Shown here: one piece after another, positions 31,713 through 34,748 of the stretch
How the letters are laid out: every line of letters begins with the position of its first letter
Numbering within the stretch: position 1 is the first letter of the stretch
Assembly: GCF_018141525.1 (NCBI RefSeq)
Contig: NZ_CP064655.1
Span: 2,140,501-2,204,500, forward strand
Length of the DNA stretch: 64,000 nt
From: Miltoncostaea marina
GTDB lineage: Bacteria > Actinomycetota > Thermoleophilia > Miltoncostaeales > Miltoncostaeaceae
Reading direction: 5' to 3'
Translations under genes and position numbers: made by a program
The notes under the pieces: model-generated
What the model was told of the DNA's origin: nothing
Databases searched by the model: none
What the model saw: the letters and a program-made list of their open reading frames with translations, nothing else

Positions 31713-32414
31713 GTGAGCGCCCGGCCGGGCATCGCCCGCCACGGGGCGCTCGAGGGCCGCATCGTCGCCTGCCGCGCCTGCCCCCGCCTCGTCGCCTGGC
31801 GGGAGGAGGTGGCGCGGACGAAGCGGCGGTCCTTCGCCGGCGAGCGGTACTGGGGCCGGCCGATCCCGGGGTTCGGCGACCGCGACCCCTGGCTGTTCAT
31901 CGTGGGCCTGGCGCCGGCCGCCCACGGCGCCAACCGCACCGGCCGCGTGTTCACCGGCGACCGCAGCGGCGACTTCCTGTTCGCGGCCCTCCACCGGGCG
32001 GGGCTGGCGTCCCAGCCGGCCTCCGTGCGGCCGGGCGACGGCCTGGAGCTCACCGGGTGCCGGGTGGCGGCGGCGGTGCGCTGCGCCCCGCCGGCCAACG
32101 CGCCGACGCCCGACGAGCGGGCGCGCTGCCTGCCCTACCTGCGCGAGGAGCTCGCGCTGTGCCCCGGGGTGCGGGTGGTGATGGCGCTCGGCGCGGTCGG
32201 ATGGGACGCCGCCCTGCGCGCCCTCGCGCCGCCGCGCCCGTGGCCGCGCTTCGGCCACGGCGCCGAGGCGCGGATCGGCGGCGTGACCCTGCTCGGCTGC
32301 TACCACCCGAGCCAGCAGAACACGTTCACGGGCCGCCTGACGCCCGCGATGATGGACGAGGTGCTCGCCCGGGCCCGCGCGCTGGCGGACGGGGCGCCGG
32401 AGGGCGCCGGCTAG
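31713..32414 (+). CDS. Uracil-DNA glycosylase, family 5 (UdgB type)
   Basis: 233 residues, GTG start. It removes uracil (and often hypoxanthine) from DNA. Visible: C-R-A-C-P-R-L (Cys20, Cys23) and later cysteines for a [4Fe-4S] cluster, [11 protein letters not shown], the active-site loop [21 protein letters not shown], and the minor-groove loop [11 protein letters not shown]. This combination is specific to family 5. Confidence 0.92.
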
Positions 32415-33661
32415 AGGTAGCCGAGCGGGTTGACGGCGCCGCCGTTGACCCGCACCTCGAAGTGCAGGTGCACGCCGGTCGAGCTGCCGGTGGTGCCCAT
32501 GCCGCCCACCACGGTGCCCTGGCCCACGGACTGGCCGACGGAGACCGCGATGCTCGACAGGTGGGCGTACGCGGTGGAGAGCCCGCCGCCGTGGTCGACG
32601 ACGACCATGTTCCCGTAGCCGCCGTTCCAGCCGGCCACGATCACGGTGCCGCCCTTCGCGGCCGCGATCGGCGTGCCGCTGGAGCCGGCGATGTCGATGC
32701 CCTCGTGCATCCGCCCCCAGCGGGGGCCGTAGGTCGAGGTGAGCGTTCCGCTGACCGGCCAGACCATGCCCGCGGACGACGCCGCCCCGGTGGCGACCGA
32801 GCCGCTCGGGCCGGACGAGGACGCCGACGACGACGGGCTCGCCGCCGCCTGCGCGGCGCGGATCTTCTCCGCGAGGGCGGCGGAGCGCGCCTCGAGGTCG
32901 GCGGTCGCCTCCTCGTACTCGTGGCGGTCGTGGCGCACCCGGGAGAGCAGGGCGCGCCGGCCGGAGAGGGCGGTGTTGACCTGGGTGGCCTGCACCTCGA
33001 GCTCGGCCCGCGCGGCGCGCGCCTGCTCGGCGGCCCGCTCGGCCCGCGCCTCGGACTCGGCGACCTCGGCCCGCATGGAGGCGATGGCGTCGCGCGTGCG
33101 CCTGGTCTCGTCGCGGTAGCGGCGCACGGTGCCGGCCAGGTCGCTGTCGCGGTTGGCGATGCCCTCGAGCAGGTCGGTGGTCTCGACGGCCGCGGCGAGG
33201 CTGCCGGACTCCACGAGCACGAGGATCGGGTCGGGCGTGCCGCGGGCGTAGAGCTCGCGCAGGCGCATGCCGAGCAGCTCCTGGCGATGGCGCAGCTCGG
33301 CCTCGGCCTCGGCGAGCCGCGCCTTCTCGACCTTCAGCCGCGCCGTCAGCTGCCGCAACCGCTCCTGCAGCGCGGCGAGCTCGGCGTCGAGCCGCTCGGA
33401 GCGGGCCCGCAGGGGCGCCAGCCGCGCGCGCAGGGCGCGGATGCGCTGGGAGTAGGCCGCCACCTCGGAGGTGAGCACCGACTCGCGGCCGCGCGCCTGC
33501 TGCAGGCGGTCGCGCGCCCGCTCGAGGCGCTGGTCGACGTCGGCCTTCTCGTCGGCGGGCGCCGACGTCGCGATGCCGGCGCCCGCCGCGAGCGCGGCGG
33601 CGCCGAGCAGCACCGCGAACCGGCCGGCCCTGCGGCCCGGAGCCGCGGACCGGTGGGTCAC
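32411..33661 (-). CDS. Coiled-coil M23 peptidase (EnvC/NlpD-like murein hydrolase or activator)
   Basis: 416 residues, GTG start overlapping the upstream stop. A signal peptide (1-33) is followed by a long coiled coil (about 38-265, many R-L-x-x-A-x-x-R-L units), a Ser-rich linker, and a C-terminal M23 domain (about 300-416) with M-H-E-G-I-D and V-H-L-H-F-E-V, the zinc ligands of an active LytM enzyme. Secreted; probably acts in cell separation. It pairs with the adjacent M23 gene. Confidence 0.88.
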
Positions 33662-34569
33662 CTGCGGTCGCGCGCCTGCGTCCGAGCTGTCGGATCCACG
33701 GCCACGAGGTGTGAGTACGGGTTGATCGGCCGCGATCCTGCCGGCCGGATCTCGAAGTGCAGGTGGGTCGCGCCGTAGCGGGCGTCGCCCGTGTTGCCGA
33801 CGGTGCCGATCACCTGCCCCGCCGTGACCCGCGAGCCCTCCTGCAGGCCCGCCGCGATCGACGTCATGTGCGCGTAGTAGTAGTCGGTGCCGTCCGCGCG
33901 CTGGAGCCACACGTAGATGCCGCCGAGCCCGGTCTCGCGCCGCGTGAGGCGGGACACGGTGGCGTCGGTCACGGCCACGAGCGGCGTGCCGCGGTCGGCC
34001 ATGATGTCGGTGCCCTCGTGGCTGCCCTGGTGGCGGGCGGCCCCGTAGTCGTCGCTGTAGGTGTAGTCCTGGCCGCCCACGGGGAACACGTCGAGGTACC
34101 GCGAGGCGCCGGGCACGACCGCCGCGCGGGTGGCGGCGCGGGGCGCGCCCGCGGCCATGCGGGTGCGCAGGCCGAGGCGCTTCATGAGCCTGGCGTTCGC
34201 GACGCCGGTCGGCTTCATCCGGAAGCGGCGCTGCACCTGCTTGACGGCCCGCTTGGTGGCGGGGCCGAAGGCGCCGTCGACCGCGATGCGGGCGCCGCGC
34301 CGGCGCAGCTCACGCTGCAGGTCGCGCACGATGGCGCCGCGCGCGCCCAGCCGCAGCACGACCGGCTTGGTGCGGACGCGGGCGGGGGCGCGCAGGGCGG
34401 CTGCCGCCGGCGCGGGGGCCGGGGCGGCCGCGGCGGCCGTCTGGGCCGTCGGCGCGGGGGCGGCCCCCTGGGCGGGGGTGCGGGAGACGGACGTGGGGAT
34501 CTCCACGTCCTGGGCGACAGCGACGCCGGCGGAGCCGGCGAGGGCCGCGAGCACGAGCGCGGCCGTCAC
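33658..34569 (-). CDS. M23 peptidase with peptidoglycan-binding domain
   Basis: 303 residues from GTG 34569. A signal peptide (to about residue 20, A-V-A-Q-D) and an Ala/Pro linker come first. A PG_binding_1 domain follows (L-R-L-G-A-R-G-A-I-V-R-D-L-Q, V-D-G-A-F-G-P-A-T). The M23 domain has the zinc motif H-E-G-T-D and the later H-L-H-F-E. It is secreted and cuts peptidoglycan cross-bridges. A 150-nt leader with a good promoter precedes it, suggesting RNA-level control. First gene of a two-gene operon. Confidence 0.9.
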   Translation of the reverse strand: MTAALVLAALAGSAGVAVAQDVEIPTSVSRTPAQGAAPAPTAQTAAAAAPAPAPAAAALRAPARVRTKPVVLRLGARGAIVRDLQRELRRRGARIAVDGAFGPATKRAVKQVQRRFRMKPTGVANARLMKRLGLRTRMAAGAPRAATRAAVVPGASRYLDVFPVGGQDYTYSDDYGAARHQGSHEGTDIMADRGTPLVAVTDATVSRLTRRETGLGGIYVWLQRADGTDYYYAHMTSIAAGLQEGSRVTAGQVIGTVGNTGDARYGATHLHFEIRPAGSRPINPYSHLVAVDPTARTQARDRR

Positions 34570-34718
34570 GAATGCATGACGGGACCGGCCGGGACCTCTG
34601 TGGGCACGCGTACGGGCTGAGATCCTTCGGCTCCTTTCCGCCCACGGCAGATGACCGCGGGCTGTGGGTCACCGGCCTGGGCGGGGCACGGCGCCTCTCG
34701 GAGTGCGGGGACGCGGGG
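34570..34718 (-). ncRNA. Candidate structured leader (possible c-di-AMP riboswitch) of the M23 operon
   Basis: A leader of about 145 nt lies between a good promoter and the M23 start codon. It contains a CCCAC/GTGGG hairpin and a G-C-C-G-A-A element followed by CAGC, CCGTA and a GCG near its 3' end. This recalls, incompletely, the GCCGAA...CAGC...GTAGGC end of ydaO-type c-di-AMP riboswitches, which often precede cell-wall hydrolase genes in Actinobacteria. The match is partial and made by eye, so the family is uncertain. Confidence 0.35.
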
Positions 34719-34748
34719 ACTTTACGGACCCTTCACCGAGCCGGTCAA
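34719..34748 (-). promoter_or_regulatory. Sigma70-type promoter for the M23 peptidase operon
   Basis: On the minus strand, TTGACC (34743-34748) and TAAAGT (34719-34724) are separated by 18 bp. They lie about 150 bp before the M23 start codon, implying a long untranslated leader. Confidence 0.55.

Follow-up and report, generated by a model that had tools for sequence, protein, structure and literature searches.

A structured leader RNA, a strong Shine-Dalgarno sequence and a probable AUC start codon at an M23 peptidase gene of Miltoncostaea marina and its relatives

We found that the gene of an M23 peptidase with a signal peptide in Miltoncostaea marina is preceded by a conserved and structured leader RNA, which aligns across genera beyond chance, and that its translation probably begins at an AUC codon (34623) behind an unusually strong Shine-Dalgarno (SD) sequence. 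From sequence comparison we propose, with moderate confidence, that the leader is a translational-control element placed before a strong SD that would drive initiation at a near-cognate codon. Positions below are those of the window, that is, the whole stretch of 64,000 nucleotides analyzed, which belongs to a genome (G000) of 3.37 Mb in a single contig. The family to which it belongs (f1) was taken by inference as Miltoncostaeaceae (order Miltoncostaeales, class Thermoleophilia). The M23 gene lies on the minus strand, and the second hydrolase frame is perhaps co-transcribed with it. The features are as follows.

34743–34748, minus strand: −35 box TTGACC (promoter scan; like the promoters 5' of the relatives' genes)
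34719–34724, minus strand: −10 box TAAAGT, 18 bp from the −35 box (promoter scan, relatives)
34610–34716, minus strand: match of covariance model R1, spanning the whole leader and the initial codons (E 1.0e-12; R1 was built from 19 leaders, this one among them)
34700–34702, minus strand: 5' strand of P0, UCC (alignment A2, RNAalifold)
34689–34697, minus strand: 5' strand of P1 (register read from A2; two mismatches in this leader)
34666–34674, minus strand: 3' strand of P1, ending GACCC (register read from A2; GACCU in most relatives)
34655–34662, minus strand: 5' strand of P2, GCCCGCGG (A2, covariation test)
34640–34647, minus strand: 3' strand of P2, CCGTGGGC (A2, covariation test)
34637–34639, minus strand: 3' strand of P0, GGA, which shares two bases with the start of the SD run
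34631–34638, minus strand: SD GAAAGGAG, 7 nt 5' of the ATC
34621–34623, minus strand: putative start codon ATC (from SD, reading frame and ortholog comparison)
33658–34623, minus strand: M23 peptidase gene, 321 aa from the ATC (the coordinates take in the stop codon); signal peptide ISARTRAHRGPGRSRHAFVTAALVLAALAGSAGVAVA in frame with the ATC, then PG_binding_1 and Peptidase_M23 domains
32411–33910, minus strand: open frame of the second hydrolase, a probable coiled coil followed by Peptidase_M23 (domain search, ORF list)

The promoter TTGACC-18 bp-TAAAGT, which had been pointed out in the initial annotation, was confirmed on the minus strand at 34748–34719. It is the sole promoter-like site between 34300 and 35200 (mean of 0.0 in shuffled sequences), and a pattern search found a similar promoter 5' of the M23 gene at 27 of the 33 related loci, with close variants recognized by eye in three more of them. 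Transcription would start at about 34712, and the ATC begins 95 nt past the −10 box.

The orthologous leaders share the pattern UCC-GA-GGG-[P1]-GACCU-ACA-GCC-[P2]-GGC-GGAAAGG, and the segments that join the helices, CUCCGAGGGG, GACCUACAGCC and GGCGGAAAGG, are also conserved among them. We examined two alignments: A2, a MAFFT alignment of 19 leaders without L009–L011 and L015, and A1, with 20 leaders including three more from the same genus as our species and without L016, L017 and L032; L003, L012, L013, L023 and L035 are in neither. The structure scored on A2, which was drawn from reading the leaders, had 86.2% of 376 cells paired, versus 39.1–47.6% when it was slid by 1–3 columns, and its covariation score was 0.340, versus 0.169 for shuffled alignments (0/500) and at most 0.113 for the slid structures; ten pairs changed on both sides, a number reached by 45 of 500 shuffles. 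On A1, 90.6% of 308 cells were paired and the covariation score was 0.324 versus at most 0.120 after sliding; the pairs changed on both sides (34/500 shuffles) and the further pair types (118/500) were not beyond shuffles in this alignment. RNAalifold, without any structure supplied, recovered P0, P1 and P2 on both alignments, and on A2 it added two pairs extending P0 to the GG of the SD core, one of which is possible in this leader. The leader is thus likely to form a three-way junction, in which P1 and P2 have good covariation support. P0 (UCC/GGA) is about 95% paired; being nearly invariant, it shows no covariation itself, and here it covers some of the SD bases, not all. Single-sequence folding gave z-scores of −1.98 for this leader and −1.83, −3.82, −0.12, −0.14 and −0.69 for five others. 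For this leader, the fold of lowest energy differs from the three-way junction. By eye, GACCU of the P1 3' strand could also pair with GGAUC at the start codon.

These results bear on what had been noticed previously in the leader. Its CCCAC (34668–34664) and GTGGG (34645–34641) can indeed pair as annotated, but the conserved helix uses another register, GCCCGCGG/CCGTGGGC. The idea of a new leader motif was supported: the leader has a structure backed by covariation and matches no Rfam family; the leader alignment of related M23 genes, put forward as a check, was carried out, and P1 and P2 covary above both the shuffled and the slid controls. With a covarying structure lying between a promoter and the start of one set of orthologs, the element has the features of a cis-regulatory leader RNA, as far as can be judged by comparative analysis.

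We then consider where the leader occurs. Matches with E below 1e-9 were regarded as strong, and model R2 was used for the phylum set and R1 for the other sets. R1 gave strong matches in 20 of 61 genomes, one in each, all of them within the 37 genomes of the family and none in the 24 others; among 199 genomes of the class there were 24 strong matches, all in f1 and all directly 5' of this M23 gene. Of 396 phylum genomes searched with R2, seven had matches, again all in f1. Weak R1 matches were also seen: four in f1 (E 0.0014–0.09) at loci without such an M23 gene, as was the case for the weak-hit loci L066–L069 and L074, and two in the search over the 199 class genomes, one of which lies outside f1 (G122, E 0.0076). 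The leaders of L009–L011, from the same genus as our species, were seen by eye and in A1 and scored poorly with R1. Because the filters were stricter and few candidates were scored per genome, a missing match does not prove absence. A search of 16 loci against Rfam (E up to 5) gave no match at the gathering score or on the leader. In two orthologs of genus g7 (L012, L013), the AUC start and the conserved promoter are present, but the leader is of another kind and its hairpins differ.

The start of the M23 gene had been listed at GTG 34569, which is probably wrong; the ATC at 34623 is favored by its SD and by the signal peptide. Starting at the GTG, which has no SD, would remove the charged beginning of the signal peptide, and a gene caller restricted to ATG, GTG and TTG would place the start of the hydrolase there, within the signal peptide. 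Past the SD and its spacer, the sequence reads ATC TCA GCC. With 8 nt, the SD is the longest among 116 sampled ORFs of this genome, and an ATC with an SD of at least 6 nt and no canonical codon upstream was found in this gene and in one other frame of the 116 (L127), which was judged from its composition to be non-coding. A count over the genome gave two cases of AAAGGAG-N4-9-ATY, one of them at this gene (reversed-pattern control, 1), and six of AAAGGAG-N4-9-RTG (control, 4); these counts are near those of the controls and therefore tell little about the general use of AUC. An assembly error is unlikely, because the ATC codon recurs in many genomes. Two other explanations were tried and rejected: a frameshift from an upstream GTG, since the GTG and the ATC are 22 nt apart here but 20 nt apart in L026 and do not keep a constant frame, and an upstream small ORF, whose ATG lies in AATGACCTCC or CATGACCTCC (genus g10) with variable frame and length and which is absent from this genome. 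Elsewhere in the genome, at about position 1500 of locus L119 (G000:C1:363145, minus strand), we noticed by eye AAAGGAGGTG followed by a TTG-started frame of 10 codons (LHSTSGGGSS) near a tRNA, possibly a short peptide gene; no Rfam family besides the tRNA was found in that region.

For comparison among relatives, we took the best M23 match of each f1 genome with a usable 5' end, which gave 32 orthologs from 37 genomes; G004, G020 and G023 (no usable best hit), G007 (cut by the contig) and G024 (no match) were left out. In 29 of the 32, an in-frame ATC or ATT has a longer SD than any ATG, GTG or TTG ahead of the hydrophobic core, under a rule that ignores codons within that core (if they are counted, L024 goes to GTG and L012 becomes a tie). 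L017 and L032 are ties with the TTG at the next codon, and L037 has neither and does not fit. The SD before the ATC or ATT is 6–8 nt long in 26 of the 32, the two ties counted. When a like rule was applied to 110 ORFs of our genome, a single genome with a slightly different search span, the SD was longer for ATY in 9, tied in 35 and longer for a canonical codon in 66; three of the nine, probably including this gene, had an SD of at least 6 nt. These 110 are the 116 sampled ORFs minus six in which the span contained no canonical codon, and probably include this gene. The ATC or ATT start was found in 10 of the 12 genera of f1; g12 does not have it, g5 is cut, and both cases in g8 are the ties. 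A near-cognate AUC or AUU with a strong SD is thus conserved among the orthologs, with no canonical codon at that place.

The substitution pattern points in the same direction. In 22 pairs of close relatives, which are not independent, substitutions at codon positions 1, 2 and 3 numbered 126, 90 and 182 after the ATY versus 72, 73 and 86 before it, so that a coding signature is seen 3' of the AUC and not 5' of it in the larger of the groups compared; the third-position excess is absent when the pairs L010/L011 and L014/L016 are taken alone. In L014 and L016, unlike in other genera, a small GCCGA..UCGGC-like hairpin follows the SD and holds the AUU in its loop. Paralogs were also inspected: L075, L137 and L076 have ATC after AAGGAG, L003 and L004 have ATG, L077 has TTG and L079 has GTG, and no clear start was seen in L080, L081, L082 and L085. 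Another paralogous M23 gene, L078 (G018), has no canonical or ATC/ATT start with an SD ahead of the hydrophobic core, and its best option is a CTG after GGAGGT.

The translational-control reading that we favor would work as follows. The conserved promoter would yield a leader RNA of about 90 nt that folds into the three-way junction, closed by P0 and carrying the hairpins P1 and P2. In P0, the 5' UCC would pair with the GGA of GGAAAGGAG at the beginning of the SD, so that access to the ribosome-binding site should be reduced while the junction is closed. Its opening, by a ligand, a protein or some other signal, would free the unusually strong SD, which would then drive initiation at the near-cognate AUC, or at AUU in some species, instead of AUG. 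Combining a weak start codon with a strong SD that can be masked may limit leaky synthesis of a dangerous hydrolase and sharpen the switch; for a secreted endopeptidase, little leakage would plausibly be an advantage.

Several rival explanations were weighed against this reading. The leader had been suggested to resemble partly the c-di-AMP ydaO/yuaA element (RF00379), perhaps as a divergent subtype, an assignment that we regard as extremely improbable. Its appeal lies in the position before a cell-wall hydrolase: a c-di-AMP riboswitch that probably acts on translation precedes nlpC in Corynebacterium glutamicum, according to PMC9960051, and when one neighboring frame was examined at each of eight RF00379 loci of the class, two were PG_binding_1, one transglycosylase-like (Rpf-like by our reading), one an amino-acid permease and one TrkH; of the remaining frames, one was a polysaccharide lyase (at the f1 locus) and two were without a family. 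However, the proposed RF00379 search gave no match, either in the window at the gathering score, where the one Rfam match is a tRNA, or between 34300 and 34900 at E up to 10, where two chance matches to Rfam appeared. RF00379 was absent from the whole genome as well, in a search that was positive in the Bacillus subtilis and C. glutamicum controls. The conserved core and the fold of the leader are also different. The letters GCCGAA...CAGC...CCGTA...GCG, likened in part to ydaO by the initial annotation, in fact run from the final base of the SD through the spacer and the ATC into the first signal-peptide codons (34631–34607), and the GCCGAA-like letters behind the resemblance belong to the SD/start region. 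Moreover, the diadenylate cyclase domain PF02457 was found in none of 25 genomes of the family versus 11 of 16 others of the class, and RF00379 was present in 6 of these 41 genomes, that is, in 1 of the 25 and 5 of the 16. The family thus appears to have no c-di-AMP synthase, and the regulatory position of its hydrolase gene is similar, but another leader fills it. The sole RF00379 match in the 25 f1 genomes (L040, G015:C212) comes from a genome in which no diadenylate cyclase was matched, and may be a remnant, a sign of a missed cyclase or contamination.

Another rival concerns the start itself: translation might begin at a canonical codon further upstream, the leader being partly coding and the AUC an internal isoleucine codon. 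An in-frame ATG, GTG or TTG with no intervening stop does exist upstream in 17 of 27 leader-bearing genes, and these may have an N-terminal extension, but no such codon is reachable in the other ten (L001, L009, L014, L016, L017, L024, L029, L032, L034 and L071), this gene among them, and L009 has no canonical codon even among the first 20 codons from the ATC. The candidate codons vary in position from −21 to −102 and have an SD of at most 4 nt where examined, at least 5 nt at none (the −102 ATG of L073 is outside the span); L018, L022 and L026 each have the conserved GACCUACAGCC block in another frame, and the codon-position bias 5' of the ATC is small. We consider this upstream start very unlikely. 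An RNA thermometer, in which warmth would melt P0 and free the SD, is slightly less doubtful and still unlikely: the shortness of P0 and its pairing at the SD would suit a thermometer, yet CUCCGAGGGG, GACCUACAGCC and GGCGGAAAGG are conserved more than a simple zipper needs. A weightier possibility, though a less probable one than translational control, is that the structure serves in protection or processing of the mRNA or as the binding site of a regulatory protein, and that low expression is set by the AUC alone, with no small-molecule switch. Strong matches before one gene, one per genome and in one family, are like those of protein-bound leaders, and AUC or AUU with an SD of at least 5 nt occurs also at loci without a model-found leader (e.g., L012, L013, L035, L083 and L086, and L075, L076 and L137). 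The contact of P0 with the SD, on the other hand, suggests translational control.

If the leader does control translation in this way, it may even represent a new riboswitch class confined to Miltoncostaeaceae that, in bacteria with no recognizable c-di-AMP synthase, has replaced the translational control of cell-wall hydrolases by c-di-AMP riboswitches known from other Actinomycetota, its output being a strong, maskable SD with an obligate AUC or AUU; we put this forward tentatively, as one possibility among several. The spread over different genes that is common, not obligatory, for riboswitches was not seen, the strong matches being found at this M23 gene only. The element is in any case a candidate orphan regulatory RNA in bacteria apparently without a c-di-AMP synthase, and the gene offers a natural case for an AUC start with an extended SD in a high-GC actinobacterium. 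In the literature searched (mostly without subscription papers), nothing among the matches listed concerned this leader or its AUC start, and nothing there linked a leader structured at its SD to a start codon that is near-cognate in most genera of a family. The AUC start codon in PMC10303841 is an engineered mutation.

Among known systems, infC starts with AUU and is governed by IF3, and the present gene is similar in using a near-cognate codon. Control of the IF3 type, inferred from infC, was considered and rejected: in the family, the 18 infC loci of 19 that could be parsed seem, from a list of codons, to begin with TTG or GTG. At three infC loci in another family of the class (L089–L091), GGGGAGGTG is followed by an in-frame ATA, and L089 has no canonical start in the open frame ahead of the conserved domain; an AUA start is possible there, like that reported for infC of Staphylococcus aureus in PMC13009471. 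The same report describes conserved non-canonical starts with an extended SD in S. aureus cvfC1 (AUU), ccpN (AUA) and infC (AUA); in poor medium, reporters of cvfC1, ccpN and citZ reached about 10% of the output obtained with AUG, and in rich medium that of ccpN gave up to 30%. The M23 gene resembles this set in its conserved near-cognate AUN codon and extended SD. The genes and the phylum are different, the codon here is AUC or AUU at a cell-wall hydrolase with a structured leader, and its start is predicted from sequence. The closest parallel in position is the C. glutamicum nlpC leader (RF00379), which is reported in PMC9960051 to act probably on translation, its CTCC being suggested by the authors to pair with the GGAG of the ribosome-binding site. 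Both leaders stand before a cell-wall peptidase gene in Actinomycetota, but the leader described here has another fold and sequence, does not match RF00379 and belongs to a family in which no diadenylate cyclase domain was found.
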